From an uncultured Psychroserpens sp. (lineage in GTDB: Bacteria; Bacteroidota; Bacteroidia; Flavobacteriales; Flavobacteriaceae): DNA of 64,000 nucleotides. Below are positions 33,014-62,750 of this stretch, in pieces; position 1 is the first letter of the stretch; every line of letters starts with the position of its first letter. The stretch spans positions 186,001 through 250,000 of the forward strand of contig NZ_CANLNS010000001.1 in the NCBI RefSeq assembly GCF_947492715.1, in the 5' to 3' direction. The position numbers and the translations under genes were made by a program. The notes below the pieces were generated by a model. That model was not told the origin of the DNA. It searched no databases and was given only the letters and a program-made list of their open reading frames with translations.

Positions 33014-33030
33014 GGGGTAGCAAAACGGTT
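33014..33030 (-). promoter_or_regulatory. AACCCTTTTGCTACCC element, copy a
   Basis: Minus strand: aaccgttttgctacccc, followed by attttgtttgggaattcctc. About 110 bp upstream of the start of the decayed family A gene. Confidence 0.55.
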
Positions 33031-33091
33031 GTGCTCTCTTAAATCTCCAGTGTTTAATGAGTTTAACAGGTCATAAATCTTGCTTTAGAAT

Positions 33092-33934
33092 TCATGATAA
33101 ACCTGTATTAAAGACTGTGATTTCATGTTTTACCAACTTCTTCACGCTATTACCCTTCGAATTGGTGATTCGTACTCAATATATTGCCGGTTCTAAATGT
33201 GATATATCAATGGTAGAATTTGTGTCACCGACTTCTTATTTAATTATCAATCTCCCTTTAAGATTATAGAGTTCTATGATTGATTTACTTGTATATCTCC
33301 CGTTTTGAAACAGCCTAAGGTTGGATTAATTAGGATATACTACAATATCCTTAAGTTTAACTTCCTTAAAAACCTTTCTAAACAAGGTGTCTCAAAACGA
33401 TAAACTAATGTGCTTTTGATTCTGTGAAACTTATCGATAAAATTCACATTTTCTATTATCTGTAATGTTCACCTGAAAAAAGGCGTCTATAGCCTCTTCA
33501 AAAAATGGCGAACTCACCAAGGCGGAGTTGTTATCCAATATCTTAATTTCGCCCTTTGATAGGCTACCATTAACCGTTATAGTCATTAAAGGAATTGCTG
33601 CGTCTCTACTTTGAGCATTTATCGTGTTTCCCAATACATTAACGTTAACAAAAAATAAGAACTTATCAGACAATTTGGTGGTATCAATACTACTTAGAAT
33701 ATCTCCTGATACTGCGCAAATTGGCTCAGTTCTTCCAACTGGAAACACTTCATTAACTGAAATAGAGAAAAAATCGGGTAAAATCAGTATAAAACCATAA
33801 GAATCGATAGCAGGCTGAACGCTCTCAGAACCAAACTCTGATACAGCTGTAATGGTATAGCAATCAAGACTATTCTGTATTAAAGAAAAACTGTAGTTTT
33901 CCATTATATTGGTGCAAGAGAATGATATAATCAT
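33092..33934 (-). pseudogene. Decayed T9SS cargo gene with sorting domain
   Basis: The upper part (33431-33934) is open for 167 codons and encodes a β-rich domain (YTITAVSEFGSESVQP, SYGFILILPD, IKILDNNSALVSSPFFEEAI). After a frame change, 33092-33360 encodes a recognisable type A sorting domain in a single frame broken by three stops: KDIVVYPN-stop-SN, IIELYNLKG, IIK-stop-EVGD, IDISHLEPAIY-stop-VRITNSKGNS, VKKLVKH. No signal peptide is left. It is a relic of a secreted adhesin-like protein. Confidence 0.7.
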
Positions 33935-34135
33935 ATCATCAAATTTTGATGCAATAAAAATTTGACTTTCATTATTAAAAAGATTTAAATTAATTAGAAA
34001 TTTTCATCTGTTGTGTTCAATCCTATTATCTAGATCATTTATAGACATTATGGTTATTCTTCTAATTGTTGAAGGATCTCCACCTGTCCTACTGAGTTAT
34101 CATAAATACTAACTAGATATACAACAGGTTCAAAT

Positions 34136-34321
34136 TCACTTATAATAATAAATGTTTTTCGAAATAGTTCTTCTTTTAGAGCTACTAGATTGTTCAATAA
34201 TGCCAGTTTCCAAAAAAACATTTACCCTATTCAATAGTGATTCTTTTTTTCCATCTATTCTTAATCCATTCTTTTTACAGAATGAAATCAGTTGATACTT
34301 TTTAACGCTATTATCAATCAT
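34136..34321 (-). CDS. Small SAP-like-motif protein, uncertain
   Basis: 61 residues: MIDNSVKKYQLISFCKKNG then LRIDGKKESLLNRVNVFLE, resembling the helix-extended-helix of SAP-type DNA-binding motifs, with a basic Ser-rich tail. It lies 27 bp beyond the OmpA-gene stop on the same strand. In another frame just after its stop, a short stretch (EFEPVVYLVSIYDNSV) resembles part of the 42144 frame. It could be a real small gene or another relic. Confidence 0.4.
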   Translation of the reverse strand: MIDNSVKKYQLISFCKKNGLRIDGKKESLLNRVNVFLETGIIEQSSSSKRRTISKNIYYYK

Positions 34322-34348
34322 TGTTTGAAATATTTTAAAATTAATTTG

Positions 34349-36262
34349 TTATTGAACTTGTGGCCCACCACTTAGAATAATAAATTCTGATCTTCTATTA
34401 CTTTGGTGTTCTTCGTCTGTACAATTAGAACCGCAATCAACTTTGAGTTCGTTCTCTCCTTTACCCATGCCTGAAATTCGAGCTTTATCTATGCCTTTAG
34501 AAATAACATATTGAACCGTCGTTTTTGCTCTTCTATCAGATAATCTCTCATTGTATGATGCAGACCCTCTACTATCAGTATGCGACGTTGCATTGATTAC
34601 CATTTCTGGATATTTATTCATGATTTGAACTAGTTTATCTAATTCAAAAGCGGCTTGTGCAGTAATATTAGATTTATCATAATCGAAAAAGATTGGGTTT
34701 AGAACAACCTCATCTGGTGTTACAATAACTTCAATTGGGTCTAACATAATACTAACCTCTTTCTCTTCTTCTTCAGAAGCACTCACTGTTAGTTTTTGAC
34801 TCTCATAACCATCCATAACGACTTCTAATTCTGATTGTTTTCCGCATTCAACAATAAATTCAACAGTACCATCAGAATCTGTTACTTTAGTTAATACTAA
34901 GTTACCTTGATCATCATATAAGGATACCGAAGCTGCATTTATTGGATTTCCTGTTTTAGAATCTGTAACTGTTCCTGTGATAAGTACATCGCATAAAGGT
35001 TGTAGTTTTTTAATAGCATAAACATCATCACCTCCTAATCCTCCATCTCTATTTGAGGATACATAGCCTTCTTCACTTTCTTCATCTAAATGAAAAGCAA
35101 AATCATCTGCATTACTATTAATTGGAATCCCGATATTACGTACAGGTCCCATTTTACCATCTACAACTTTAGAATAAAATACGTCTAAATTCCCTAGTCC
35201 TAAATGTCCATTTGAAGAGAAGTATAATGTATTATTACTACTGATATAAGGAAACATTTCTTGACCTTGAGTATTTACTTTTTGTCCTAGGTTAGTTGGT
35301 TCTCCCAAAGTACCGTCATCATTTATACTTGCTTTGTAAATATCATATAAACCAAAACCTCCCGGCATATTAGAAGAAAAATAAAGTGTTTTACCATCGG
35401 TACTTACTGATGGGTTTTTTACTGAATAGTTCTCACTATTGATTGGAAAGCCTTCAACATCTCCCCATCCATCACTAGATTTTGTTGCCTTAAACAATTG
35501 AAGTTGACTTATTCTATAGTTTGTTATAGAATCTCTTTGGTATTCCTTTTCGAAGTAACTTTCACGAGAAAAATACATTGTTTCTCCATCTGGAGAAAAA
35601 GCAACAATACCTTCATGATATTTAGTATTGACTTTGCCTCCTGCTAAATCTGCTGCTTGGTATGTACCATCATCATTTTTAGTCAATTCGTAAATATCTA
35701 AAAATGGTTCTTCATTCCATCCATAAGTTTTACGAGAAGTATTTCTTGCAGACGTAATGTAAAGTTTGCCATCCTGAAGTGTTCCACCAAAATCAGAATA
35801 CTGCGTATTAAAACCTAAGTTTTGAATATTGAATTTTTTTCCTTTTTCTAAAATCTTAGGTAAGTAATCTGGATTTTTATTGAATGCAATAGCTCTATCA
35901 TCATTTGGGCGCATTTGAGCAAAATTTGCTATTTGAGTGTTTGACTCTTCATACTTACCATTTGCTTTGAGCATTTGGGCATATTTAAAAAGCATTTCTG
36001 GATTAGTATTTCCTTCAAGTGCTTTGGCATACCAGCGTTCTGCTTCAACAGTATTAAATACATTATAATAAGATTCTGCCAATTGGCTATAAACATAAGG
36101 GCTGCCTTTTCCGTTTTCAACTAATTCAGCATAGTCTTCAGCAGCTTCAACAAATTCATATCTATTAAAATGTTTATCTGCTTTTTTTGTGTCTTTATTC
36201 TGAGCAATTAAGCTGAAACTACTCAATGCTACTATTGTAAAAAGTATTAATAATTTTTTCAT
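34349..36262 (-). CDS. OmpA-family protein with PD40 propeller (gliding/T9SS adhesin accessory)
   Basis: 637 residues. Signal peptide (1-20), TPR-like helices (about 25-130), a PD40/WD40-like propeller (about 150-410; blades LYFSSNMPGGFGLYDIYK, LYFSSNGHLGLGNLDVF, GYVSSNRDGGLGGDDVYA), a carboxypeptidase-regulatory-like domain (about 425-510), and a C-terminal OmpA peptidoglycan-binding domain (IFFDYDKSNITAQAAFELDK ... SHTDSRGSASYNERLSDRRA). It follows the PorP/SprF gene by 19 bp and the giant type B adhesin gene. Such trios move or anchor SprB-like surface adhesins. Function by family and context. Confidence 0.93.
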   Translation of the reverse strand: MKKLLILFTIVALSSFSLIAQNKDTKKADKHFNRYEFVEAAEDYAELVENGKGSPYVYSQLAESYYNVFNTVEAERWYAKALEGNTNPEMLFKYAQMLKANGKYEESNTQIANFAQMRPNDDRAIAFNKNPDYLPKILEKGKKFNIQNLGFNTQYSDFGGTLQDGKLYITSARNTSRKTYGWNEEPFLDIYELTKNDDGTYQAADLAGGKVNTKYHEGIVAFSPDGETMYFSRESYFEKEYQRDSITNYRISQLQLFKATKSSDGWGDVEGFPINSENYSVKNPSVSTDGKTLYFSSNMPGGFGLYDIYKASINDDGTLGEPTNLGQKVNTQGQEMFPYISSNNTLYFSSNGHLGLGNLDVFYSKVVDGKMGPVRNIGIPINSNADDFAFHLDEESEEGYVSSNRDGGLGGDDVYAIKKLQPLCDVLITGTVTDSKTGNPINAASVSLYDDQGNLVLTKVTDSDGTVEFIVECGKQSELEVVMDGYESQKLTVSASEEEEKEVSIMLDPIEVIVTPDEVVLNPIFFDYDKSNITAQAAFELDKLVQIMNKYPEMVINATSHTDSRGSASYNERLSDRRAKTTVQYVISKGIDKARISGMGKGENELKVDCGSNCTDEEHQSNRRSEFIILSGGPQVQ

Positions 36263-36281
36263 GATGTTTTAGCTTAGTTGA

Positions 36282-37205
36282 TTAGAAATATCTTGGTGAG
36301 CGTGAAACTTTCTTTGGAAAGTTTAAATCAAATAATAACATAAATTCGTGCGATGCAGGTGCATACTTTTTAATATCAGAACTAACTCTATCGTAAGCAT
36401 ATCCAATTCTTAACGATGGTGTAATTGAAAAGTTTATTAATCCTGAAAACGAATCATCCAATCTATATGAAGCTCCTAATTCAAACTTCTCATAGAATAA
36501 AGCATTAAGGTTAACATCAAATGATGTTGGTGCGCTAAATGCAGACTTCACCAGAAACGATGGCTTCAATTTTGTGTTTGGAGACAATTGAAACACATAT
36601 CCACCAGTAAAGAAGTAATGTGCTTCTTCTGAACCTAATTTATTCCCATCTGCATCTAAGTGTACAGAGTTAAGTATGTTTGGTACAGATCCTGCTAAAT
36701 AATAATTATCTGTGTAATAGAAAAAACCTGCGCCAATGTTAGGTGTTGACGTGTTTATATTTTGAAAAAACGGATCGTTAGGATCTATTAAATCAATTCC
36801 TGCTAATCCAATATCATGGAATGTCGCTCCAGCTTTAAGACCAAAAGCTAGTCTATGTTCGCCTTCTAATTGTAATGTATAAGAGAAATCGGCATATACG
36901 TTAGTTTCTTTAATTGGCCCTACTTCATCAGAAATAATGGAAAGACCTACTCCTACTCTTTCTCCTACTGGTAATGCATCTCCTCCTACAGGTAAGTGTA
37001 CGAAAAAAGTTCCTGTCTTTGGAGCGCCATCAATACCAGCCCATTGTGAACGGTACAATAACCCAAAAGACAAATTCTCTTTTGAACCAGCATATGCTGG
37101 GTTAATGACATTCATATTATACATGTATTGTGTATATTGAGGGTCTTGTTGTCCATACACTGGTGTTGCTATGAGTAATACAATAATGATATATATATTT
37201 TTCAT
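36282..37205 (-). CDS. PorP/SprF-family outer-membrane protein
   Basis: 307 residues. Signal peptide about 1-18, then the family opening QQDPQYTQYMYNMNVINPAYAG and LLYRSQWAGIDGAPKT, and β-barrel-like alternation to the aromatic end. PorP/SprF proteins work with the type IX secretion system to export or anchor type B sorting-domain adhesins, usually encoded next door. It lies 28 bp after the adhesin stop and 19 bp before the OmpA gene. Secure family call. Confidence 0.95.
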   Translation of the reverse strand: MKNIYIIIVLLIATPVYGQQDPQYTQYMYNMNVINPAYAGSKENLSFGLLYRSQWAGIDGAPKTGTFFVHLPVGGDALPVGERVGVGLSIISDEVGPIKETNVYADFSYTLQLEGEHRLAFGLKAGATFHDIGLAGIDLIDPNDPFFQNINTSTPNIGAGFFYYTDNYYLAGSVPNILNSVHLDADGNKLGSEEAHYFFTGGYVFQLSPNTKLKPSFLVKSAFSAPTSFDVNLNALFYEKFELGASYRLDDSFSGLINFSITPSLRIGYAYDRVSSDIKKYAPASHEFMLLFDLNFPKKVSRSPRYF

Positions 37206-37233
37206 CTATTAGTTGTTTGATTTTAGTTGGTTT

Positions 37234-40200
37234 TTAATTTAGACGTTGGATATACACCCAAGCACTTCTGCGTTTACCATCTTCATATTCCATGGTGTAG
37301 AAATAAGTCCCTACAGGCAGTTCATCACCATCATTGGTTTGTCCGTACCACTCATTTGTATAATTGTTTTTAGAGTAAACTAATGTCCCATTACGGTTAA
37401 AGATTTCAAGCTTACTTACATCGTAGCTACTTAAATCAAAAGTATCATTCATTCCATCTCCATTAGGAGAAATACCTTGAGGGATTACACAACTGTCCAA
37501 CTCAATAATTGTTTGAGCGGTAATACTTGAACACATTGTAGCATCATTGAAGGTCACTTCAATTTCATAAAGCCCTGCCTCAAGCACTGGTAAGGTTAAC
37601 CCTGTTTCTCCTGCAATAACACCACCATCCTGATACCATGCAATTGACACTTCAGATTCAGAATAATTATTAGCAGTTGCAGTAATTAAAATAGGTACAG
37701 TGGCATTAGGACATACCTCATATTCAAAATCGGTCGTAAATGACGTACTAGGTAATGGTTTTACAATTAAATCAAATGGTGTTGTAGAATAACAATCAAA
37801 AACAATGTTGTTTTCTACTCTTGCGTAAATCGTTTGAGAAGCACTACTATATAATACTGAAGTATCAATAGCATTAGTACCTGCTTCTGCATCGGCTTCA
37901 GTTTCATAATAACTCACTGTAAAGATTGTGTCATCTTGCCCATTTAAAACATTGGCATCATGTGCAGCTAAATCAAATAAAGTAACGCCATCTGTATCAT
38001 CATCACAAGCCTCAATTGCAACACTAGTAGCATCAGGTGTTGGTCCAGAGATGATTAAATCAAACGTTGTTGTTGCAAAACAGAAATTGGCATTAGCATC
38101 TTCAATTCTCACAAATATAGTTTGAGGGTTTGAGATGTTAGTATAAGGAGACGCTAGTGCACCTATATTTGCTTGAGCATCTGCTAAACTTAAATGATAG
38201 GTTACATTAAATTCTGTAGCATCCTGTGTGCCTAATACTCCAGCGGTTTGCATATCTAAATCAAAGTCTTCAATTCCATCTGCAGAAATATCATCACAAG
38301 TTATAATGTTTGGAACCACATTCGCGACAGATTCATCTCCAAAAATTATAGTCACCGAATCTTGGGCTTGTGCATCACACTGCTCATCATAGGCAATAAC
38401 AGTATAGGTACATGACTCTGTTACGGTTAAGGTAGATGACGTTTCTCCTTCAATAATAAAGCCATCACAATACCATTCGTACGAATCTGCAAATGGAGAA
38501 TCTGCAATTATATCGTAAGACTCAAAACCACAAAACGTTTGATCTAGACCTAGATCCACTTCTATTTCAGCAGTGATATTACCATCATCTGGCCCTCCAG
38601 AATTTGTTTGACTAATTGAAATTGTTCCAACTTCATCAGAGTAGTTCGTTACTAATAGAATATAAATTTCCCCTGACAGCGCATCATTAATTGTTAAGTT
38701 TTCAATAGCTGATCCAGAATAACTACAATCTACAATATTTCCATATGGATAGAAATTAGGATTTGAGGTATTATTAGGGCAATCACCTCCTGAGTTTGGA
38801 CAACCTAAATCTAAGTTACCGCAAGCATTTTCTAAGGAATCAAAAGGCCCCCAAAGCACGAAATCTACATCTAATCCACTGTCATTCGCATCTGTTTGTG
38901 AAATTTCAATTTCAATTAAACCTGGATCGCCAATCTGAATAATATTCCAAGTTGGATTTGGTGCTGAATATAAACACGCAATATCTGTTGGATCAGGGAT
39001 TCCAACAATATTAGAAGTCGTTAAAGCTCCACCTGGTTCTGCACAGAAATTCTCTGCATTTTCACAAATTATGTTTGTTGGCGCCTCTTTAATACATAAA
39101 TCAAAGGTTGTTGTTTCAGGATTACTCCCTCCAGAAAACACTCTAATATAATATGTGTTTCCTACAATAAGTAGAGGCGTTACACTAGCTGTATCGTTTG
39201 TACATTCTAATTCAATTAAATTGTCACAATCTCCTTCATATAAGGCATAATCCATATTGAATCCTCCTCCAGCAATATTTATCAATGAAATTAACTGAAC
39301 TTCACTTAATGCTGTAAATTGGAACCATACATCGTCATCAGGGTTTCCTGTACAAAAGCTTGTTGGAATACCAGAATCTGTTGCTTCTATTAAAGATCCT
39401 GCTGTTAATAAATCACAGGTTTGATCATCATTAACTAGCGCAACAGTAGCATCACATGGATTATCATTTTCAGGTGGACAAGCCAATAATTGGATTGCAC
39501 TACTGCTTATTACACAATTAACATCTTGATCATTGCTTATAGTAACCACAACATCTTCTAAAAATGGGAATGGTCCTATTTGATACACGCCAGTAGCTGT
39601 AACTGGAACTGTGGTAGCATCTATATTGTTTGAAATTGTAAGTGATGTAGCGTCACCTAATGTAGTAATGTTAACGTCTATTAAAAATTGATCTCCATTA
39701 GCGCAATCATCGACTGCTTGATAAGTTGCAGCAGGATTAATACACGTTGCACACGAAACTGTCACATCAAAAGGTGTATAACCATTTTCTGAACAATTTA
39801 CAGAACCATCTGAATTAATATACCATGAAATCGTATCACCAGATGATTGAAAAGAAATACCTGATGGATCTGCTATATTTTGATTGTATAATTCTGTTCC
39901 ATCTGAATCGATAATTACTAACTCATCACAACAGCCTTCCATTTGTCCATCATTAATAACGAAGTTAAGCGGTAATCCGTTTGAACTTGTATATGTAAAC
40001 GTTGCTATTGATGGATCATCATCAATATCATCAAAATAGCAAAACGTTGTGTTCACAGGACCTTCGTCACAATCAACTATATTATCTAAACAATACTCTT
40101 GTGTTAATGTTGTACTAGTTAATTCACAGTTAACATCATCATCACTAGCTACACTTATAATAACATCCGTATTATTTACAAATGGTCCAAAACTATACAA

Positions 40201-41988: not shown

Positions 41989-42490
41989 AATTATAGTAGC
42001 GTTTTGGTCTTATTTATGTGTACTTAAGACGGTGAAATTTCAAGTATTCAAATTTTTGATTTACCTAGAGCTAAACACCTAATAAAATACTTTGTCAAAA
42101 AGATTGCTTATCACAGCAGTGATCACCTTCTTCTTTTTTATAATTAAAAATTATTTATAACCAGTATCAACATCATTACATAAATCAATATGTAGCTTAT
42201 TTCTAGCTTGTTACGTTTTAAATAGTTCTTCATTTTTATTTCTTTAACTAGTTTAACAATCTTCACTTTTACTGTGCTATCGTAAATATTTACTAGACAT
42301 ATTGCAGGTTTTAACGCGCCTATATCTATCATATTTAGTGGTTAGTGGTTTATCAATCAGAACGTCCTTTGACCTACGATATTAAAAACCTCTATGAGTG
42401 GGTTAATTTGTTTTTAAACACTTGCTAAAGTATATGCATCACTAGAACCTCCCAAATAAAATGGGGTAGCAAAATGGTTGTGCATAGCCC
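41989..42490. other. Intergenic region with small frame and regulatory element
   Basis: About 0.5 kb between the adhesin and its truncated duplicate. A 62-codon frame (42144-42332, begins MIDIGALKPAICLVNIYD) ends in a hydrophobic helix; I cannot assign it and it may be a relic. An element copy lies at 42463. Confidence 0.45.
42463..42479 (-). promoter_or_regulatory. AACCCTTTTGCTACCC element, copy b
   Basis: Minus: aaccattttgctacccc followed by attttatttgggaggttcta, nearly the same as copy a over about 45 bp. It lies 131 bp upstream of the 42144-42332 small frame and about 475 bp upstream of the giant adhesin gene. Confidence 0.6.
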
Positions 42491-42494
42491 ATAA

Positions 42495-42955
42495 TTGTTT
42501 GATTTTAGTTGGTTTTTAATTTAGACGTTGGATATACACCCAAGCACTTCTGCGTTTACCATCTTCATATTCCATGGTGTAGTACAGCAATTAAGTCCTG
42601 GAGCAGCACAGCTTCCAGAAATATCGGTTTCTATTTCAAAAAATAATGAATCGCCTGTAGATTCAAACACTAAACCAGAAAGATCTCCATCATTATCTCC
42701 TTGATATAGTAAGGTTGCTGTATTATCTGCACCATCATAAATTAATATCTCATCGTAGTCTGCTTCAATACCACCTGAATTAAATGTTAATTTTATAGGG
42801 CTTCCATCTGAGGATTCAAACCACCAGGTTGTATCATCTTCATTGTCATAGCAATGAGCAAATTGTAATGGTGGCTGCGTACAGTTAACAGTTGTTTGTG
42901 CGTTAGCACACCAAATTGAGAACGTAAAAACGACTAATTGTAGAATTTTTTTCAT
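42495..42955 (-). pseudogene. Truncated duplicate of the giant adhesin (internal deletion)
   Basis: 144 codons. The N-terminal signal peptide and first CUB-like domain (CYDNEDDTTWWFESSDGSPI, ILIYDGADNTATLLYQGDND) match the giant adhesin. At about 42582 the sequence jumps to the last 18 codons and 3' flank of that gene; the 88 bp 42495-42582 equal 37213-37300 exactly. The join is out of frame, so the sorting-domain end (EYEDGKRRSAWVYIQ) is read in the wrong frame as NMKMVNAEVLG. The product would lack any sorting domain. Confidence 0.85.
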
Positions 42956-43050
42956 AATAAAATTGTATTAATTAATTATTTAGAGTGGATTAGTTTTTAG
43001 ACTAAGCACTGGCTAAGCTATACGCGTTGATAGAAACTCCCAAATAAAAA

Positions 43051-43067
43051 AGGGTAGCAAAAGGGTT
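43051..43067 (-). promoter_or_regulatory. AACCCTTTTGCTACCC element, copy c
   Basis: Minus: aacccttttgctaccct followed by tttttatttgggagtttcta. Ends 96 bp upstream of the ATG of the truncated adhesin duplicate at 42955. Confidence 0.6.
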
Positions 43068-43278
43068 TTCCGAGCATACAAGAGACCATACACTATCTTA
43101 ATGACATGCCACTTTCTCTTTTTTTAAAGTTTTATGATTCCCAATGAAAATTCATTGTAAAATGCTTATATGTAGTAGCGAAGTAATTGTGTGTTTAGCA
43201 GTTAAACATGCAAGATCTAGGCTTTATAGATCATCAACGATCTTAAACCCAACATCTTATTCATGAAAGACCTCCTTA

Positions 43279-43514: not shown

Positions 43515-43533
43515 GGGGTAGTAATGAGGTTGC
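43515..43533 (-). promoter_or_regulatory. Degenerate element copy h
   Basis: Minus: gcaacctcattactacccc followed by tcatttttaga; matches the element core with three changes. Confidence 0.3.
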
Positions 43534-43676
43534 ATCATTTGTTTATGCCATTTTCAACAAAGATTAGGATTGTCAAAATTCACACTTAACAATTTCCTTT
43601 CCATCTCATACACTTAAAGTAAAGACATTTGATGATAAAACAATTGAACAAAAAATGGGTATGCAATCCATAATGA

Positions 43677-45338
43677 CTATCTGCTGATACTAGTATTAGC
43701 CGCACTTCTAATAAACGCAATGATATCTTTATTAGAATCAATTAATAGTTTCTTGCGTATTCTATGTCGTGTAGATTTAATTGAGGAAAGTGTGGTATTT
43801 AGTAATTCACTAATTTGCACGGCTGTCAAATCTAAAGTCATAAAGCAAAGAATTTCTTTTTCCTTTTCGCTTAATACTGTGAATTTGGTATTCAAAATAA
43901 TTTTAAAGTCCATACTTACCTTATTTAAATACGCTTGCAAATTTTCTGAAGTTGTTTTTGTTGTCTTTTCTGAAAGTAAGGTTGCCCAGAGCGATTTTAA
44001 TTCTTTATTTCGTTCTTTTGGGTTTTCTAACTTAATTATTTGTTTAATCCTATCTAGTGTTTTATGAAGTACCTCCTGTCGTAATGAGTTTTCTATAACA
44101 GCTCTCTTAAGTTCATTTTCTCGAGTCAATAATACCAATTCTCCTTTTAACTTGTCTAACTGTTCCTTTTCTAGTTTATTTTCAGATAGTTTTAAACGTT
44201 GTCTAGCATTTTTCTTAACAAGCCATAAAATAGCTATCCCTAAAACCATAGTAAGTATAAACAACAAAAAGTATAACTTACGTTTTGAAGCTTCATTCTC
44301 AATGATTAATTGATCTGCTAATTTTTCTTTGTCAAATTTATGATTAAGCTCCAATGCCGTAATTCGTTTCGCTTTTTTTGTGTCATTTATGGAATCATAA
44401 TACGTCTTGTAAATTTTATAGTCTTCTAATGCCTTAGCATATTTCTTTTGTTTTCTATAGAGGTCACTTCTTTCACGATAATGCAAAACCAAAAGACCAA
44501 CATCCTTTACTTCCTTAGCATTAAAAATAGCGCTATCAAGATGATGTGACGCTTCTTCATAATTGCCTAAAGCACTAAATACAAAGGCTACATTTGAATA
44601 GCTAGCACTTACTTCTTTTTTATCATTAAAAGCTTTAAAAATAGCTATGTTTTTTTGGAAAATCTTTATGGCTTTATCTAGTGCTCCATTACTATAGTGA
44701 ATACCAGCCATAGTCGAATTAATTTCAGCTTCTGCCCGTTTGGAAGTTATTGGAAGTGCCTTAGCTTTATTGATATAAATAAGTGAAGAATCTATTTGAT
44801 CGTCATAGTAGAGTGCATCTGCTAACTTTTGATATGATAATCCCAAATTGTTTGCATCTTCTATCAATTTCCATATGACAATTGCATCCCTAAAATACTG
44901 CTTAGACTTGGCATAGTCACCATAAATTGTATAAAACTTACCTAGGTTATCTAACGTTGACCCAATACCTGTGGAATCTTGAATAGTTTCGAAAATATCT
45001 AATGCGCTTAAGTAATGGGACAAAGATACTTCTGTCTTATCTTGTTGCAAATCAAACATCCCAAGAGCATTTAATGCATTTGCTTTTTGTTGCTTGTAAT
45101 AATAAGATTGATAGTTCTTATGTTTTATGGTTTCAATAATATTATTAATAATTGTTCTTGAGGTATCTAAATCAAATAAACGTGTGCGGTCTGCAAGTTG
45201 CAACTCAAGATCAATTTTTAAGGAATCACCTGGAGCCATTCTTATTTTTTGTAAAATAGTGTTAGCTATACTATCCTGAGTTTGACTGTACCCTATACTA
45301 AATAATAGTGCACATATAATAGTAAACAAATGTTTCAT
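43677..45338 (-). CDS. TPR / single-TM / LuxR-type HTH regulator, copy 2
   Basis: 553 residues, colinear with the 30668 product from the signal peptide (CALLFSIGYSQTQDSIANTI) through TPR repeats, a TM helix (about 352-372, KLYFLLFILTMVLGIAILWL), and the HTH (LSEKEKEILCFMTLDLTAVQ, ISELLNTTLSSIKSTRHRIR). Differences are spread along the whole length, so this is an older duplication. It probably senses an envelope signal through the TPR part and regulates transcription. It lies between the adhesin module and the fibronectin-type T9SS genes. Confidence 0.88.
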   Translation of the reverse strand: MKHLFTIICALLFSIGYSQTQDSIANTILQKIRMAPGDSLKIDLELQLADRTRLFDLDTSRTIINNIIETIKHKNYQSYYYKQQKANALNALGMFDLQQDKTEVSLSHYLSALDIFETIQDSTGIGSTLDNLGKFYTIYGDYAKSKQYFRDAIVIWKLIEDANNLGLSYQKLADALYYDDQIDSSLIYINKAKALPITSKRAEAEINSTMAGIHYSNGALDKAIKIFQKNIAIFKAFNDKKEVSASYSNVAFVFSALGNYEEASHHLDSAIFNAKEVKDVGLLVLHYRERSDLYRKQKKYAKALEDYKIYKTYYDSINDTKKAKRITALELNHKFDKEKLADQLIIENEASKRKLYFLLFILTMVLGIAILWLVKKNARQRLKLSENKLEKEQLDKLKGELVLLTRENELKRAVIENSLRQEVLHKTLDRIKQIIKLENPKERNKELKSLWATLLSEKTTKTTSENLQAYLNKVSMDFKIILNTKFTVLSEKEKEILCFMTLDLTAVQISELLNTTLSSIKSTRHRIRKKLLIDSNKDIIAFIRSAANTSISR

Positions 45339-46033: not shown

Positions 46034-46095
46034 GGGGTATAATTTTAATTTTCGAATCAAATTTAAAACACCCAACTAAAATCCCTTAATATTTA

Positions 46096-46120
46096 GGGGT
46101 AGCAAAAGGGTAGCAAAACC
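46096..46120 (-). promoter_or_regulatory. AACCCTTTTGCTACCC element, copy d (double core)
   Basis: Minus: ggttttgctacccttttgct then acccc, i.e. two overlapping TTTTGCTACCC cores, followed by taaatattaagggattttag. Confidence 0.6.
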
Positions 46121-50668: not shown

Positions 50669-53254
50669 TTAGTTTTTAATAATACGAACCGTTTCAGTTG
50701 CATTATCTATTGTTACTTTAACAAAGTATGTTCCTGTTTGTAAAGCAGACAGGTCTAAGTTTTCTTCTAAGCTATTTGGTGTATTGTGTAATACTTCTTG
50801 TCCTAGCATATTGTAAACAGATACCTTTTGAATGTTGTTTTGAGCTTGTAAGAACAAGGTTTCTTTAACAGGGTTTGGATAATAACTAAATGCTAAATCA
50901 TTTTCGACATCTTGAGTGGTTAACGTATGGCAATCTACTGTAGCTTCCCATCCTGCTCTTTGTACAGTACTATCAGAAGAAAATACAAATGTTAAGGCTC
51001 CAGAAGGATCTGTAGATGTAATGGTCATACCTTGTAAATCTCCTGTACCAACAGCAGGCGTATCATTTCTATCCCAACACCAAATTGTTCCACCTCCTGG
51101 AGGATTAATAGTTGCTGCTGTATCATCTTCTCCATTATAAATTGTTAATCCATCATAACAAGCATTAGATCCATTATTTTCTGCAGAGAAGAAACTAAAG
51201 TAAACACTAACAGTACCTCCTGCTGTATCTGGAGTAATTGTATAGCTAATATTTTGATTATCTGAATAATTTCTACTAATTCCACCAGAATCTAAGAACG
51301 TTCCGTTAGAACATGATGGAGGTACAGCTACATAAGATGTAATAAATGTAGATGGTCCTGCCCAAGCAGAAACTCCATCTACTCCACAATCTGCTTGTAC
51401 ATAAAACTGATATGTGTTGTCTCCTACTAAACCAGTAGCAGCAAAAGGACTCGTAACATCTGTTGCTGTTGCTATACCTGTTGCTGTTTCTCCAGCTGTT
51501 ACATCTACCAGTTCTATATTCCAAGACGTTGCAGTTCCATTTTCTGTCCATCCTAAATTAGCAGTTGTTTCTGTAATAGTAGTTGCTGTCAACCCACTAG
51601 GCATAGGACATGTTTCTAGCGTTGAGAACGCAAATGGTCCAGCCCAAGTTGATACGTCATCTTCTCCACAATCTGATTGCACATAGAATTCATAATTGTT
51701 ATCCTGTGTTAATCCTGTAGCCGTATATGGGTTTGTAACTCCAGAAGTTGTCGCAGTTCCTGTTGCAGTTCCTCCAGCTGTTATATCTACGAGTTCTACA
51801 TTCCAAGACGTAGCAGTTCCATTTTCTGTCCATCCTAAATCGGCAGTTGTATCTGTGATATTCGCAGCTGTTAAAACAAATGGTTTAGGACATGTAGGCA
51901 ATTCAGTAAAAGACACATTATCAATAGCAATATCTCCTTCAAATAAACCAGCACTTGTGGCTCTAAATGTAATCGTAATGGATTGATTAGCATACGCAGA
52001 TAAGTCAATTACAGCCAATTCCCATGGCGTTGTTTCAGATGCTTGTTGCTCCCCTGACAATGTCCAAACATTAGTTATTCCATTAACTAATACATCTAGT
52101 GTTCCTATTTTATTACCAAACATATGATAGTTAAATGTTAATGCAGGTGTTGTAAGTGCTGATAAATCAAATAAAGGAGATATTAAATCTGCTGTATCAC
52201 CGGTTGCTCCATCTGATGCTTCTGAATAGAAATAGTTACCTGTTGTAATAGATGGAGCTGGGCCAGTATCGTCTGATCCTGTATCTGTACCTGGTGCAGA
52301 TTCCCAAAAATATGCTCCACCTGTTCCAGTCCAGCAGTTTTCAATAGCAAAAGCTACATCTTCAGCTGTTGTAAACATTTCAAAATCTTCTGTATATGGT
52401 GCTGTTATTACACACGTAGTCCTGAACGCAAAAGGCCCAACCCAATTGGTTGTACCACCACCACATTGGGCTTGCACCCAAAACTCATAATTATTATCAG
52501 GTGTTAATCCTGTAGCCATATATGGGTTTGCAACACCAGAAGCTGTAGCAGTACCAGTAGCAATACCTCCAGCTGTTATATCTACGAGTTCTACATTCCA
52601 TAATGTCGCTGTTCCAATTTCTGTCCAACCTAAATTGGCAGTAGTATCTGTAATAGCAGTTGCTGTTAACCCTGAAGGTTCTGGACATGATGTTGAGATA
52701 ACTGTTGGAGCCTCAAAACAAAATCCCCATAACCATCCTCCAACATCGTCATATGCAATACGATATTGGAAGCCTGATAACTGTGTAGCAGTAAATCCAG
52801 AAATATTAAGAAACGCAGATGCATACGCTACTGTACCATTACAATTCTGGAAATTTGTATTTGTAGAGTTACCTAAAAACGTGTCTAATGCTGTCCAAGT
52901 CATGGCATCAGCATCATAGGTTTCAATTGTTAAAACATCTCCTCCTAGTGCTCTGTAAACAAAATTCCCGCTTACGTTGATCCAATTTTCACCTGCTATT
53001 TGAGCAGCAGTCAAATCGATTACTGGTGAAGTCGCTTGGATGTTATCTACAGAAGTGATACCTGCAGCATCGTCATCAAAACCAAATGTAGCATCTACAG
53101 TTGGGTCAGATAATAATCCACCAGCGCTATATGCACCAGAAAGTGACCAATCTGCATTAGGCCAATTTGCATTCTGATTTAATGTTTGTGCATATGAGCT
53201 AAACGTAAAAGCTACTAACATGGCAATCGCAAAAAATAAAGTAATTTTTTTCAT
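50669..53254 (-). CDS. Fibronectin-III/MAM-like/CUB surface protein with T9SS type A sorting domain, second copy
   Basis: 861 residues, same layout as the 46397 product but shorter: signal peptide (1-22), N-terminal β domain, FN3, one MAM-like domain (APYTEDFEMFTTAEDVAF), three more FN3 modules, the CUB-like domain (about 650-775) and the type A sorting domain. The last 187 bp of the gene plus flank are identical to those of the 46397 gene, while the N-terminal domains differ, so the pair has undergone recent exchange at the 3' end. Element copy e lies 73 bp upstream. Likely a surface adhesin or binding protein. Confidence 0.92.
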   Translation of the reverse strand: MKKITLFFAIAMLVAFTFSSYAQTLNQNANWPNADWSLSGAYSAGGLLSDPTVDATFGFDDDAAGITSVDNIQATSPVIDLTAAQIAGENWINVSGNFVYRALGGDVLTIETYDADAMTWTALDTFLGNSTNTNFQNCNGTVAYASAFLNISGFTATQLSGFQYRIAYDDVGGWLWGFCFEAPTVISTSCPEPSGLTATAITDTTANLGWTEIGTATLWNVELVDITAGGIATGTATASGVANPYMATGLTPDNNYEFWVQAQCGGGTTNWVGPFAFRTTCVITAPYTEDFEMFTTAEDVAFAIENCWTGTGGAYFWESAPGTDTGSDDTGPAPSITTGNYFYSEASDGATGDTADLISPLFDLSALTTPALTFNYHMFGNKIGTLDVLVNGITNVWTLSGEQQASETTPWELAVIDLSAYANQSITITFRATSAGLFEGDIAIDNVSFTELPTCPKPFVLTAANITDTTADLGWTENGTATSWNVELVDITAGGTATGTATTSGVTNPYTATGLTQDNNYEFYVQSDCGEDDVSTWAGPFAFSTLETCPMPSGLTATTITETTANLGWTENGTATSWNIELVDVTAGETATGIATATDVTSPFAATGLVGDNTYQFYVQADCGVDGVSAWAGPSTFITSYVAVPPSCSNGTFLDSGGISRNYSDNQNISYTITPDTAGGTVSVYFSFFSAENNGSNACYDGLTIYNGEDDTAATINPPGGGTIWCWDRNDTPAVGTGDLQGMTITSTDPSGALTFVFSSDSTVQRAGWEATVDCHTLTTQDVENDLAFSYYPNPVKETLFLQAQNNIQKVSVYNMLGQEVLHNTPNSLEENLDLSALQTGTYFVKVTIDNATETVRIIKN

Positions 53255-53326
53255 ATTAATGATTTATTTAGTTTATTATTTAATCAGCCGAAATTAAACC
53301 TTGCAGCTTAAATTCTTTAATGTTTT

Positions 53327-53345
53327 AGGGTAGCAAAAAGGTTTC
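53327..53345 (-). promoter_or_regulatory. AACCCTTTTGCTACCC element, copy e
   Basis: Minus: gaaacctttttgctaccct then aaaacattaaagaatttaag. Ends 73 bp upstream of the 50669-53254 gene start. The stretch further upstream (53346-53420) also resembles that beside copy d. Confidence 0.65.
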
Positions 53346-53880
53346 AAAATCTAAAAACCTTGTGTTTGTGTGGGCTTTCAAATAGTACGATAGCATGATG
53401 CATTACAAAACCTCTTTTAAGAATAAGATTAAATGGAGAACCTATGATGTTCCATATACTGGCATCTGCATCCCAGTATTCGAATTGTAAAATTTCGGTA
53501 TTGATATAATTATAAACAACGTTTCCAGAGATTATAATCGCCCTTTCTCCTGCTGTATGAGCAGCAGTCAAGTCAATTATAGGTGATTCTGCTGCAATAT
53601 CATCATCGCTTCCAGATAAGGCATCGTCATCATCGAAAGCAAAATTTGATGTTAGGGTTGGATTGGCTTCTAAAGCCGATGGGTCAGTATTATATGTTCC
53701 TATAAGCGTCCAATTTGTATTGGGCCAACTTGCATTCTGATTTAATGTTTGCGCATATGAGCTAAACGTAAAAGCCCCTAACAAGGCAAACAAAGTAAAA
53801 GCATATACAACACTTTTAACTTTTTGTATTCTCTAATCATAAAGGAACACGTTGGACAGGATTCACAGCGTGAACGTGTA
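53344..53880 (-). pseudogene. Chimeric relic: deaminase fragment joined to a truncated T9SS protein N-terminus
   Basis: On minus, 53798-53880 encodes SCPTCSFMIREYKKLKV, homologous to the CEPCPMCSFMIREYKIKRVV segment of the deaminase gene 1.7 kb away. It runs directly into the signal-peptide tail and N-terminal domain (LGAFTFSSYAQTLNQNASWP) of the 46397-type protein. That part ends after about 120 codons at IIGSPFN and continues into intergenic promoter-like sequence. No proper start exists; it is a recombination scar. Confidence 0.75.
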
Positions 53881-53888
53881 AGGTTTGT

Positions 53889-53920: not shown

Positions 53921-53934
53921 GATATAAAGATAAT

Positions 53935-54876
53935 TTAGTGTTTTACAAACTTTAAGGTCTTACGACCTGTATCTGTTAATACTCTAGCTAGATAAATACC
54001 ATCTTTAAACGAAGAAACATCAATTGAGACTTTATTTTCAGATAACGTAGTATTCATAACTCGTTTACCAAGAACATCAAATATTTCAACTGAATTTAAA
54101 AGATTATTTGGTGAATCTAAATTCAACGTTTTCACGTCAGTATCATAAAAATGTGAAAAGTCATTTGCCGCAAAATTAGCAACTGACAAATCTTCATCAT
54201 TGGTTCTAAAGTTGTCTACGTATGCGAAACCAGAATAATTATCATGAGCGAATCTTACTTGCTCAATATTAGTCATTGTAGTTGCAACTATCCCAACAAA
54301 TATTGAAACATTATCAATAAAAAACTCAATAGAATTATTATCAAGTTCCATTCTAACATTAAACCAAGTTAAAGGTGTCCAATCTGCATTTGTATCTATC
54401 AAATCAACAGTTCCAGTTCCTGTTCCATCATCTGCTAAAACAACAATATCTCCTTCATAAGTAAATCTTATGTAGGTAATAAATACCTGATCTGTAAGGT
54501 TTACCAGTCCAAAAATATAATCTGAAGTATTAGTAGAATCGAATGTGTCAATATTCATGTCTGCTGAAAAAGTTGCTTCTGTATAAGACACAGCTGTAGT
54601 ATAATCATAAAAAGCACCAACTATTTGACTCGCTTGCCCTCCAAAAGCTGTTTCTTGAACGATTTTTAAACAAAAAGTACCATCAGTGGAGTTTTCATCG
54701 CTGATAATTTGATTTTCAATAAATGTATCTGCTCCTATAGGTGTAGACGACCACCCGTTCTGAGTATTTACGTTTCCTAAGGTAAATCCTTCAGAGGTCT
54801 CAAATGAAGTAGTTTGTTGTGAATGAATAGCGAAACTAAATAGAATGGCTGCAAATAATAGAGTAGTTTTTTTCAT
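53935..54876 (-). CDS. Secreted lectin-like protein with T9SS type A sorting domain
   Basis: 313 residues. Signal peptide (1-19, AIHSQ). Residues about 25-220 form a jelly-roll-like domain (TSFETSEGFTLGNVNTQNGW, FCLKIVQETAFGG, FNVRMELDNNSIEFFIDNV, VDNFRTND) as in concanavalin-like secreted proteins. The type A sorting domain occupies about 240-313 (LNSVEIFDVLGKRVMNTTLS, FKDGIYLARVLTDTGRKTLK). Element copy f lies 71 bp upstream. Ligand unknown. Confidence 0.88.
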   Translation of the reverse strand: MKKTTLLFAAILFSFAIHSQQTTSFETSEGFTLGNVNTQNGWSSTPIGADTFIENQIISDENSTDGTFCLKIVQETAFGGQASQIVGAFYDYTTAVSYTEATFSADMNIDTFDSTNTSDYIFGLVNLTDQVFITYIRFTYEGDIVVLADDGTGTGTVDLIDTNADWTPLTWFNVRMELDNNSIEFFIDNVSIFVGIVATTMTNIEQVRFAHDNYSGFAYVDNFRTNDEDLSVANFAANDFSHFYDTDVKTLNLDSPNNLLNSVEIFDVLGKRVMNTTLSENKVSIDVSSFKDGIYLARVLTDTGRKTLKFVKH

Positions 54877-55345
54877 AATGCATTATGTTTAATTAATGTT
54901 ATTAGAAACAAAAATATGCAGTTGAACTAAAATTCTTTAATATTCACAGGTAGCAAAAGGGTTTCGATAAACTAAAATTGGGTCTTAATACTTATAATAA
55001 TGTTGGTTTTCGATCAGACGATTTACGTTTCGACTTTGAAGATGATAAAAACGTTGGATTTATAGAGAACAAGGAGAAACTGAAATAAATTTACATTTAT
55101 GTATTGGCTATACGTTTTAGCAGTAAAAACATTGTACAACAACGTATATGGATTTGTTGTATGAGTTATGTGAGAGTTAGCACTTAACTTTGTGAGTATA
55201 AACCAAGTTGGAAATTCTGCGGAATCTAAAAAAGTACGCGAGAACAAGCAATTACTTAAAGCCATTACTAGCTACAATTTTTTAATTATTTGAAGCCATT
55301 TGATAACCTATGTATGGCTATTTTATAAATCAATTTTCAGGGTTT
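54877..55345. other. Intergenic region with a structured repeat-like sequence
   Basis: Includes element copy f and, at about 55080-55265, a stretch with internal inverted repeats (tacaaca / tgttgta around 55134-55161; agttagcacttaact around 55176-55190). An 80-codon frame across it (55023-55265) has no protein-like features. I believe the sequence belongs to an intergenic repeat family in flavobacteria, but only one copy is in this window. Confidence 0.4.
54947..54965 (-). promoter_or_regulatory. AACCCTTTTGCTACCC element, copy f
   Basis: Minus: gaaacccttttgctacctg then tgaatattaaagaattttag; ends 71 bp upstream of the 53935-54876 gene start. Shares the attaaagaattt extension with copy e. Confidence 0.65.
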
Positions 55346-55882: not shown

Positions 55883-55962
55883 TACTACAAGCAATAAATG
55901 ATAAACTTTAAAATAATGCGAAAGTAAATTTTAAAGTTTATCATACTATAATGGTTGTGTTA

Positions 55963-58069: not shown

Positions 58070-58117
58070 AATTAATTAGGTTTATTGTTGTTATTATTTG
58101 TTTTAAATGTTTGTTAA

Positions 58118-60097: not shown

Positions 60098-60109
60098 AAG
60101 ATTACTATT

Positions 60110-61034
60110 TTAGTTTAAGATTAATTTCTTTTGCTGAAACGTATTGTTATTACGTATTGTCATAACATACAGTCCATGAGATAGGCTCGTAAAGTTGAGT
60201 TGGTTTTTTTCCAGAAGTTAAATGTCCTTGTTTTATAATTTGCCCTCTAGTGTTTATTAGCTCATACGTTACTGCTTCTAAAGCATCTACAGTTATTATG
60301 CCGCCATTGTTGGGTATTGGGTATATACTAAAGGCAGGTCTTTCAAATGAATTAGTACTCAAAGTATCACAATCTTCACTAAAACTAGCTACATCATCTA
60401 TGGATGTCCAATTAGTAATACTATAAGATGCATTATCTACTTGAATACAAGTTAAATTTGAGTTTCCTGTTGAACTAAAACCAACAATATTAGTGTTGTT
60501 TCCGTTTGCCAGATTTAAAACACTTAAATTATTTGACTTACAGAAAAGTTGTGTTAGAGCAGTATGCGTACTTAAATCTAAACTGGTTAAATTATTATCA
60601 TTACAGTAAAAACGTTCTAATGCAGTATTGCTACTCAGGTCTAAACTGCTTAAATTATTATTCTTGCACGAAAGATACTCTAAGGCAGTATTCGAACTTA
60701 AACCTAAACTGTTTAAATCATTAAAATCACAGTTAAGAGTTTCTAATGCAGTATTCGCACTCAAATCTAAACTGGTTAAATTATTTTGAGGACACCATAA
60801 ATACTCTAAAGCTGTAAAGTCTTCAATACCAGTTAAATCGTCAACTCCTTTATTAAGAATAGTTAAGTTTACTAGAGTATTAATATTTGCCGTTAGTACA
60901 TAATCGTCTAGAACATCATCCAGGTTTAGGTCTATTAAAACCTGTTCAAAATTATCATCGGGTACATAAGTGTTTTGTGCTTGTGCAAAAGCACATACAA
61001 ATAGTATAGACATGTAAAGTAGGCTTTTTTTCAT
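60110..61034 (-). CDS. Leucine-rich-repeat T9SS protein with frameshifted sorting domain
   Basis: The uninterrupted frame (stop at 60150) starts MKKSLLYMSI at 61034; an upstream extension to 61073 is unlikely. Signal peptide (1-19), then LRRs of the type NTALETLNCDFNDLNSLGLS and NTALERFYCNDNNLTSLDLS (about 60-175), then SIYPIPNNGGIITVDALEAV of a type A sorting domain. The frame ends abnormally (YEPISWTVCYDNT). Removing one A from a 7-A run (T's at 60204-60210 on +) restores GKNQLNFTSLSHGLYVMTIR and then NNNTFQQKKLILN to a stop at 60110. So either the gene is frameshifted or the base count is wrong. Confidence 0.8.
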
Positions 61035-61140
61035 GATATGGTTATTAGTTTGTTGCATAAACATTGAAGTCATTTTTCGGTTTTTTAAATTTTAATTGTT
61101 TGTTTTAAATTTTAAGAATAATCTTGCTATTAATCATTTT

Positions 61141-62286
61141 TTAATTAACTGTATACCTTACAACTACTAGATTATCTAATACTACATTTGTACTCCAAAT
61201 AAATTCTGCATCATTAGTAGTGTCATCAAAAACATCTGTAAAATTGGTATAAGAGGTTTTGTTGTCTACGCCAATCTCAGTATTGGTATAAGTGGTTGCC
61301 GATGGCCAACCTGAATCATCGAAGTTTTCCGTTTCCCAATCTGTATCTTGTGCCCAATGCAAACCATAGTATGTAGCACCATCATCGGTACCTGTGGTAT
61401 CACAATTATCGGTGCTTCGTGTGGTTCCACTTTCAGTAGGGCAACTTAAATCTTTTATAGGTGCAGAATAGAATGTTTGTGCTTTCCAATCGCCTCCTGT
61501 AATTGCAACTGTATTATCTGACTCATCTTTAAATACAGCAACCATCCCTCCATCTCCTGGATGGTAAGAAAACCCTTGATTATCTTCTGACCCAAGGCCT
61601 AAATTTTCTTCCCAATCCACCAGTTTCATGGCTATAGTATAAGACGTTGAGGCTCTAAAGCGAACAATGCTTGAATTAAAGTCTGTGAAAGGCACAGCAT
61701 CTTTACCCACAGCAACACCATTTACATACATTTCAAAATAATTATCAGCAAATATATACGCGGTAATTACTTCTCCACTTGCATCGATTTCAATAATATC
61801 ATTTCCATCTAAAGCACTAACTGCTTCTGTTGCCGAAGCATAAGTATTCCCATAAACATTGTACAAATCTGATGACAATGGAAATGTATCATCTGTATAG
61901 TTTACTTCTGCAGGAACCGTCCACGTGCTACCATCAGTTGCATCAATAGTTCCTAAACCTGCAACTCTAGTTCCGTTAGAAAATAAATTTGCTATTGTTG
62001 TTGTAGCTAATCCTTGTGTAACCAATGCTGTTCCAGAGTATATAGAACCTGTACCATCGTCTGTATCATCTGTATCTGTACTATTTGATACATAACCTGT
62101 TGGTTGGTCACAGTCTTCTAGACTTATATCAGGATTTCCCAAACCATCGCCATCTGCATCTTGATACCAAGTAGAGGTTGTACAAGGGCTATCACCTTCA
62201 TCTGAGCAGGCTATAATAAAAGCAAGAAAAGCAGTTGAAGCAATTGAAATAATCAATAAAAAGGTAAATTTTAGGTGATTTTTCAT
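61141..62286 (-). CDS. Surface lipoprotein with Ca-binding-like motif, neighbour of the YHYH gene
   Basis: 381 residues. Lipoprotein signal (1-26, FIIACSDEGD), an acidic segment with YQDADGDGLGNPDISLEDCD as in thrombospondin type 3-like calcium-binding repeats, and a β-rich body (about 90-381) with FEMYVNGVAVGKDAVPFTDF, a galactose-binding-like fold element, and CPTESGTTRSTDNCDTTGTD. No enzymatic motif. It begins the same-strand group that continues with the LRR and YHYH genes. Confidence 0.8.
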   Translation of the reverse strand: MKNHLKFTFLLIISIASTAFLAFIIACSDEGDSPCTTSTWYQDADGDGLGNPDISLEDCDQPTGYVSNSTDTDDTDDGTGSIYSGTALVTQGLATTTIANLFSNGTRVAGLGTIDATDGSTWTVPAEVNYTDDTFPLSSDLYNVYGNTYASATEAVSALDGNDIIEIDASGEVITAYIFADNYFEMYVNGVAVGKDAVPFTDFNSSIVRFRASTSYTIAMKLVDWEENLGLGSEDNQGFSYHPGDGGMVAVFKDESDNTVAITGGDWKAQTFYSAPIKDLSCPTESGTTRSTDNCDTTGTDDGATYYGLHWAQDTDWETENFDDSGWPSATTYTNTEIGVDNKTSYTNFTDVFDDTTNDAEFIWSTNVVLDNLVVVRYTVN

Positions 62287-62309
62287 AATTATAGTATGTG
62301 TTTCTTAAT

Positions 62310-62610
62310 TATTTATGTTTAGATGCGCTTTGATTGAATAATATATCGGATACACCAACACCATCGTGTTGCAATACTGTCGATTGTGTATCTACAACTA
62401 TACTATTATCGTCTTTATCACGAAGCTCTACAAATACCCAGTCTGTAATAACATCTGTGCCTACAACCGTAAACACAGATGCATCAGCGACTAACCCATC
62501 ACCTATGGTAACATAGAGGGATTACATTTCGTAAATCATCGCGCAATAAGCTTTTTATCCCTGTATTGGGGTTTAAGTTTGCGCCTTCTAATTAGACTCT
62601 TGGACTTACA
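62310..62610 (-). pseudogene. Decayed T9SS surface-protein gene, relic of repeat family A
   Basis: Minus strand, frame-shifted pieces read LEGANLNPNTGIKSLLRDDL, then RNVIPL, then YVTIGDGLVADASVFTVVGT, DVITDWVFVELRDKDDNSIV and VDTQSTVLQHDG, and end at a stop after SASKHK. There is no start or signal peptide. The module is the same as that decayed at 32380-32905 (RDDLR ... LVADASAFTN ... DW). Confidence 0.65.
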
Positions 62611-62710
62611 AGCACTATCTCTTTCTCAAGGTTGTTTTAGGCTATACGGCCTTCATAAATTGTTTTTTTTACAAAAAAAGATGAAAACTAAAGGAAAATG
62701 CTGTTTTTAA

Positions 62711-62750
62711 GGGTGTCAAAAAGGTTTCTTGGAGGTATCAAAAGGGTTGC
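62711..62750 (-). promoter_or_regulatory. AACCCTTTTGCTACCC element, copy g (degenerate pair)
   Basis: Minus: gcaacccttttgatacctcc followed by aagaaacctttttgacaccc. Two diverged cores in tandem, about 100 bp upstream of the family A relic. Confidence 0.4.

Follow-up and report, generated by a model that had tools for sequence, protein, structure and literature searches.

Why does one short intergenic sequence recur in front of surface-protein genes, and of the remains of such genes, within a single block of a flavobacterial genome? The stretch analysed here, which we call the window, comprises 64,000 nucleotides from an uncultured Psychroserpens sp. (contig NZ_CANLNS010000001.1, positions 186,001 to 250,000), and the repeat occupies its 33-63 kb block. 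A sequence-only reading had proposed that the repeat is a promoter or operator of a local regulon of surface proteins, cargo of the type IX secretion system (T9SS), perhaps served by a LuxR-type regulator that the block itself encodes. Comparison across genomes supports this idea: the site keeps a fixed distance to a -7 promoter box, occurs together with the regulator and is met again in other genera, and the operator period tracks the regulator tree. Judged from these patterns, the element probably serves as operator for a membrane-anchored, MalT-like activator of the neighbouring surface-protein genes, which would combine tetratricopeptide repeats (TPR) with a LuxR-type helix-turn-helix (HTH) and act at sigma-A-type promoters.

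The core of the repeat, AACCCTTTTGCTACCC, has eight matches in the window if up to three mismatches are allowed and both strands are searched, all of them on the minus strand. By chance 0.48 matches are expected, and none of 100 shuffled sequences attains eight, which bears out the claim of a recurrent core with at least seven copies. The copies are present where they had been reported, except that six were off by one and the copy at 62711 is a member of a tandem pair; a degenerate copy placed at 43515 does exist, at 43517-43537. They are also restricted to the 33-63 kb block, as had been claimed, with no match (up to three mismatches) in the window's 1-33 kb. At up to two mismatches the rest of this genome holds only two further matches, C3:76491 and C1:1264124, the first in surroundings that resemble those of a match in another genome (L008, L019), as expected of conserved coding sequence. 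Hence, the element is a property of this block, and an even spread of copies over the genome is excluded.

Two other origins of the repeat were considered and rejected. A conserved frame (NxFATPF), such as a coding relic might leave, can be traced through copies a-c, but the variable base of the core is then a second codon position, and copies d-f, judged by eye, meet a stop early in that frame. No features of an integron attC site or a mobile repeat were seen on inspection; a mobile origin was judged from the distribution of copies and their flanks only, without a search of a mobile-element library.

What, then, is the element made of? A gap-free alignment of copies a-c and d-f has AACC, the ACC end of a proximal half-site 11 bp on, an AT-rich spacer and a TAnnTTTG-like box. 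Each promoter module consists of a proximal half-site TTTTGCTACC, a second half-site 11 bp upstream (often its AACC end only) and a -7 box. Counted from the first T of the proximal half-site, this box begins at exactly 42 nt in each of the six main copies, with 0-1 mismatch. The general type of the half-site is TTTTGNNACC, NN being CT in the window. Because the modules align as tandem half-sites, the 16-mer core takes in one whole half-site and only the end of its partner, and the alignment indicates that the operator proper is the half-site pair, not the core. The two tail classes distinguished earlier (ATTTRTTTGGGA and ATATTAAGG) dissolve in this alignment: at equal distance and without gaps, they are variants of one promoter spacer.

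The box agrees with the flavobacterial sigma-A -7 box TAnnTTTG, which spans -12 to -5 according to an excerpt of PMC9723704, and on this numbering the half-sites fall at about -65 to -45, immediately 5' of the -33 region. Across 44 distinct promoters, a set that includes the sites of the window and of an uncultured Flaviramulus sp. (G348) from which the idea arose, the box is found within one mismatch at offset 41-43 in 38 cases and perfectly in 13. The columns that are strongly conserved belong to the half-sites and the -7 box. TTG at -33-like offsets (16-23) is only modestly enriched (16 of 44 promoters; shuffle mean 9.0, maximum 17).

Two paralogous genes of the block, starting from positions 43677 (regulator 1) and 30668 (regulator 2) in Table 1, encode the candidate readers of this site; both products have TPR repeats and end in an HTH. 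The signal-like and hydrophobic segments of regulator 1 are read from its sequence. Its predicted structure (mean predicted local distance difference test, pLDDT, 82.6; predicted template modelling score, pTM, 0.60) has a TPR superhelix at about residues 37-316, a long helix at 319-434 and a terminal HTH. The putative membrane segment, a hydrophobic stretch read from the sequence at about 354-373, lies inside that long helix. Modelled alone, the terminal domain matches LuxR/NarL/GerE domains and has the four-helix GerE fold, and the 50 Foldseek matches listed for the full model are mostly TPR proteins. No receiver domain and no MalT-type ATP-binding signalling domain was found in either regulator (Pfam, E 0.001), and in the model the TPR helices begin near residue 37.

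Does the site occur where the regulator occurs? Among 397 genomes of the family, exact AACCNTTTTGCTACC is found in 18: six times in the genome studied here (five in the block, one on C3), twice in G348 and once in each of the other 16. The reversed pattern gives about 30 matches, and hence the single-match genomes are background. Searched against the same genomes at E 1e-80, the 43677 protein matches its own genome, G348 (three copies, 64-72% identical) and G136, G200 and G373 (38-40%). G348 is thus the sole other genome with close regulator homologues and also the sole other with more than one exact core match. A position weight matrix derived from the window finds extra copies there, both on the contig that carries the three regulators and close to one end of a different contig. 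The G348 sites precede secreted proteins; five of the six that were followed have the start of an open reading frame (ORF) 71-92 nt downstream and one has it at 223 nt, with a nearer TTG start. In G136, G200 and G373 a tandem with an 11-bp period lies downstream of the regulator, at most about 130 bp away, the one in G373 having no ORF of at least 50 aa that starts within 330 nt. The Psychroserpens genome itself carries a paralogue on C2 (31% identical) with TTTTGACACG tandems at a 10-bp period, before the paralogue and before the next surface gene, and with a related site before a second surface gene. Two other species of the genus retain the first two of these sites.

A wider set of loci was obtained by searching an alignment of nine regulators (A1) in 349 family genomes and in the genera of G117 (one genome), G340 (97) and G216 (three). 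Test 1 comprises 16 loci (299 kb) with no genome from A1, and test 2 comprises 28 loci with 1.5 kb flanks, including four G117 loci that overlap those of test 1 and yielded no site. In noncoding sequence of test 1, TTTGNNAC tandems with at most one mismatch over both halves number 12 at period 10 and at most two at other periods from 7 to 16; coding stretches have two at period 10 and up to five at other periods. One locus, L118, is not independent, since it was chosen for its match in a search for the tandem alone (weighed below) and lies about 17 kb from its regulator; without it the period-10 count is 11. The site of L177 had already matched in that same search. Without the noncoding and -7 conditions the excess in test 1 is modest (14 at period 10 versus a Markov mean of 3.9, maximum 9 of 20; reversed, two). 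Test 2 yields 15 tandems at period 10 (14 distinct, L209 and L212 sharing one) and four at period 11, with one each in the reversed sequence.

The pattern sharpens when the -7 box is required at 41-43. This composite occurs ten times at period 10 in 7 of the 16 loci of test 1 and once across the other periods; in test 2 there are 11 at period 10 and three at period 11, spread over 13 of the 28 loci, and two at other periods. At periods 10 and 11 the controls give 0/22 for neutral loci, 0/28 for loci outside the family, 0/9 for distant TPR loci and 2/51 for background loci, and if the box is shifted to 31-33, period 10 gives one (test 1) and two (test 2). The tandem by itself is found in the 28 loci of relatives outside the family never at period 10 and once at period 11 (reversed, two and one). 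No composite was found in L183-L187, and weaker candidates at 2-3 half-site mismatches (L173, L175, L196, L203, L208) were discarded, as other periods also match in seven of the eight loci compared. The same architecture recurs in other genera beside less closely related members of this regulator subfamily, mostly with a 10-bp period and with the same -7 distance.

The operator period also follows the regulator tree. A tree of 53 regulators, made by a quick maximum-likelihood run, gathers the 11 rows whose period is 11 bp in one clade with 100% support in the Shimodaira-Hasegawa-like approximate likelihood ratio test (SH-aLRT). Among the 35 rows that carry a period label (10 bp in 24, 11 bp in 11) the label switches a single time, compared to at least six changes (mean 9.6) in 200 shuffles of the labels. 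Labels were set per locus, such that regulators at one locus share a label, and 18 of the 53 rows are unlabelled. Setting NN side by side with the recognition-helix residues yielded no recognition code.

Which genes would the operator serve? The distance from the proximal half-site to an ATG is 74 nt for d, 82 for f, 84 for e and 107 for b. The sequence-only reading had placed the clearest copies 63-110 bp before an ATG. Modules a and c lie before relics or a farther gene. Modules a, d and g front relics, and the regions of a and g hold fragments that resemble surface proteins of G348 and G200. In other genomes six targets were scanned with Pfam; LRR, HYR/lectin-like, YadA-head/S74 and Por_Secre_tail proteins are among them, and one target matches no family. 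Por_Secre_tail is present in two of the six, and the variety of domains suggests that the targets have surface display in common and not a single sorting signal. Surface proteins beside the G117 regulators have FYKI..QLP-like ends and those of G200 and G373 end in FQI.EQLPEN (target proteins of L174, L176 and L062). These ends differ from the usual Por_Secre_tail and could, from their sequence, possibly be another sorting signal; relics of such proteins lie at 62.4-62.6 and 32.4-32.8 kb of the window.

The mechanism that we infer for signal, topology, binding and activation is as follows. A periplasmic TPR domain would sense a protein or peptide, and a single transmembrane helix and a coiled coil would carry the signal inward. 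Cytoplasmic LuxR-type HTH dimers, most likely of the 43677 product and/or its paralogue 30668, would bind the direct repeats, whose two half-sites, head to tail and 11 bp apart, would face the same side of the helix and form an upstream activating site. The bound dimers would then bring RNA polymerase to promoters whose -33 region is weak and turn the adjacent surface-protein genes on. Half-sites on one helix face, rigid placement and the weak -33 region together suggest an activator that touches RNA polymerase.

Several observations weigh against this reading. The regulators score 19.7 and 19.9 bits with Pfam GerE and do not reach its curated cut-off of 23.5 (Sigma70_r4_2 is likewise below its own cut-off). 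The distal half-site is reduced to AACC in four of the six main copies (a, b, c, f), and a strict tandem scan of the block gives two period-11 matches at up to one mismatch and no period excess at two; the tandem is therefore recognised through modules d and g and through other genomes. Only e, f and b have an ORF of at least 140 aa within 110 nt, the other modules of the window fronting relics or nothing intact. No tandem at up to one mismatch is present in 8/16 (test 1) and 13/28 (test 2) of the regulator loci, and no composite in 9/16 and 15/28. As a marker the tandem alone (TTTGMYACN{2,3}TTTGMYAC) had to be given up: its 62 matches in 48 of 397 genomes compare with about 53 for the reversed pattern and are mostly background, and among 54 further loci from this search a strong regulator is found only in L097 (E 2e-61), with weaker ones in L116 (E 2e-19) and L145 (E 5e-6). 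In the genus of G340 several sites have no ORF of at least 50 aa starting within 330 nt; such an ORF is lacking at the composite or tandem sites near regulators in L199, L200, L202, L204, L207 and L210, which may possibly serve small RNAs or very short genes. Finally, in L178 (7315-7953) and L199 (from 4015) an ORF that by eye starts like a response regulator follows a tandem site beside TPR-LuxR genes.

Those last two loci would fit a case in which another DNA-binding protein, for example a response regulator, read the same site and were merely kept with the TPR-LuxR gene, whose binding we infer. We think this unlikely, because the operator period falls into a single clade of the TPR-LuxR tree and the 17 block ORFs scanned with Pfam include no response regulator. 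One could also argue that the site is a repressor's operator, with the regulator keeping the surface genes off until a signal arrives. Sites before the regulator gene itself (L040, L045) would fit autorepression, but the site is placed rigidly upstream of the -33/-7 region and does not overlap it, and the modest enrichment of the -33 TTG is expected if an activator compensates. Repression seems to us about as improbable as the foreign binder. Duplicated and decayed genes abound in the block, and the repeat might be a functionless by-product of segmental duplication in which gene heads were copied together with their upstream DNA. The same geometry of half-sites and -7 box recurs beside different surface proteins in other genera, however, and conservation over the 44 promoters picks out exactly those parts; cross-genus recurrence makes passive copying very unlikely. 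Least probable of all is an extracytoplasmic function (ECF) sigma promoter or a mobile or recombination repeat, for although AACC is similar to some ECF -35 boxes, copies of the core keep to one block of this genome and composites to regulator loci bar the 2/51 in background, and the downstream box is of the sigma-A type instead of the CGT box of ECF-type promoters (PMC9723704, excerpt).

Suppose the operator does belong to the TPR-LuxR activator. It is then conceivable, albeit doubtful, that we are looking at private switches, in which each TPR-membrane-LuxR regulator would read its own version of TTTTGNNACC (NN, 10 or 11 bp). Paralogous cassettes of regulator, operator and adhesin would operate without crosstalk and be gained, duplicated or lost as units, and the TPR domain may read the state or the surroundings of the displayed protein. 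Little is understood of how flavobacteria choose among their numerous secreted adhesins for display. If an operator can be read and the regulator beside it identified, surface-protein regulons would become predictable from sequence across the family, and an operator spacing that shifts with regulator clade provides a testable case.

Table 1. Regulators, promoter modules, targets and relics in the window (core, match to the 16-mer core; main copies a-f have 0-1 mismatch).
Feature	Position	Strand	Description
Regulator 2	30668..32323	-	551 aa; 65% identical to regulator 1
Relic	32396..32789	-	like C-terminal part of 1441-aa surface protein beside G200 regulator; pieces E 8e-9, 0.002
Module a	32976..33036	-	core 33015-33030; distal GAGCACAACC 33027-33036 (AACC only), proximal TTTTGCTACC 33016-33025, -7 box TAGTTTAG 32976-32983; fronts gene relic matching L054:7119 protein start, E 0.001
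Module c	42425..42485	-	core 42464-42479; distal ATGCACAACC, proximal 42465-42474, -7 box TACTTTAG 42425-42432; downstream, decayed C-terminal sorting domain-like sequence (by eye only), 1584-aa ORF 486 bp on
Target of b	42521..42955	-	144-aa CUB-domain protein; resembles part of 37234-41988 ORF; Por_Secre_tail not found (Pfam)
Module b	43013..43073	-	core 43052-43067; distal TCGGAAAACC, proximal 43053-43062, -7 box TAGCTTAG 43013-43020; ATG 42955
Decayed module	43517..43537	-	AACC...CATTACTACC, directly past regulator stop; no -7 box at offset 42
Regulator 1	43677..45338	-	553 aa; N-terminal signal-like segment, TPR superhelix, hydrophobic segment in long helix, C-terminal LuxR/GerE-type HTH
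Module d	46058..46118	-	core 46097-46112; perfect tandem TTTTGCTACC-C-TTTTGCTACC, -7 box TAAATTTG 46058-46065; ATG 46033 starts 30-aa relic; DoxX-like ORF from 45898
Target of e	50669..53254	-	861-aa fn3/MAM protein with Por_Secre_tail (Pfam)
Module e	53289..53349	-	core 53328-53343; TTTTGAAACC / TTTTGCTACC, -7 box TAATTTCG 53289-53296; ATG 53254
Target of f	53935..54876	-	313-aa protein with Por_Secre_tail (Pfam)
Module f	54909..54969	-	core 54948-54963; distal TATCGAAACC, proximal 54949-54958, -7 box TATTTTTG 54909-54916; ATG 54876
Relic	62360..62630	-	downstream of module g; same G200-locus 1441-aa surface protein; 47-57% identity, E 7e-18
Module g	62672..62765	-	core pair 62733-62748 (2 mismatches) and 62711-62726 (3 mismatches); five half-site-like units in exact 11-bp phase, TCTTTGACACT / CAAAGCAACCC / TTTTGATACCT / CCAAGAAACCT / TTTTGACACCC; -7-like TTTTTTTG at 62672-62679; relic downstream

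The surroundings of the modules have features of their own. Between 46397 and 53793 lie large duplicated genes of the fn3/MAM/C-terminal-domain type, along with a third copy that is broken. Identity over 300-bp stretches reaches 95%, and the sequence suggests recent duplication and loss. A 1584-aa repetitive ORF, a PorP/SprF protein and an OmpA/PD40 protein (the latter two by Pfam) follow in series at 34349-41988, a row that we take to resemble a gliding-type adhesin set. A direct repeat of about 44 bp, GTACAGATGAAAAGCC...TTTTGTTTT, is present at about 29886-29929, at the end of tRNA-Leu, and at 63159-63202 on the opposite side of the 33-kb block, and its two copies are possible island ends. 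The G+C content is the same inside and outside the block (0.342 and 0.343), and no integrase was recognised among the 17 block ORFs scanned with Pfam.

How does this system compare with known ones? We found no description of the regulator-site pairing among the open-access papers listed, a set that leaves subscription papers mostly outside and gives weak evidence of novelty; PMC12239597 speaks in an excerpt of a putative LuxR-like protein that has no effect on gliding. The promoters share the TAnnTTTG -7 box with the flavobacterial sigma-A promoter as excerpted from PMC9723704, and differ in their weak -33 region and fixed upstream tandem operator. The ECF-type SM6 promoters of the same excerpt are similar in their T9SS-related control, but SM6 has a CGT box and the T9SS genes listed are parts of the machinery, whereas here sigma-A-like promoters of individual surface proteins are concerned. 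NarL/FixJ response regulators have a similar DNA-binding fold; here no receiver domain was found by Pfam, and the sites are direct repeats with a period of 10 or 11 bp.

Membrane-integrated one-component regulators of the CadC/ToxR type have a periplasmic sensor, one membrane span and a cytoplasmic HTH. The arrangement predicted here is alike, except that the LuxR/GerE-type HTH is C-terminal and the TPR sensor N-terminal.

MalT of Escherichia coli joins a TPR-type sensor to a LuxR-type HTH, and in the MalT family an ATP-binding signalling domain precedes the TPRs. A paper by Vidal-Ingigliardi from 1991 is said, going by its title, to concern asymmetric MalT sites as direct repeats. Excerpts of PMC7567727 describe such sites as asymmetric and used as direct repeats next to the promoter, and excerpts of PMC8265627 and PMC7567727 let MalT touch RNA polymerase via direct-repeat boxes. 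The likeness in direct-repeat operators near the promoter is one of analogy, not homology. The half-site here is of the TTTTGNNACC type and that of MalT is GGGGA(T/G)GAGG; our site lies upstream of the -33 region, whereas MalT's overlaps -35; and the targets here are surface proteins. Membership in the MalT family fails, as the Pfam search found no MalT-type ATPase and a hydrophobic segment stands between TPR and HTH instead. The kind of system is nevertheless already known, a one-component LuxR-type regulator with direct-repeat operators, and the present pairing is a variant of it.

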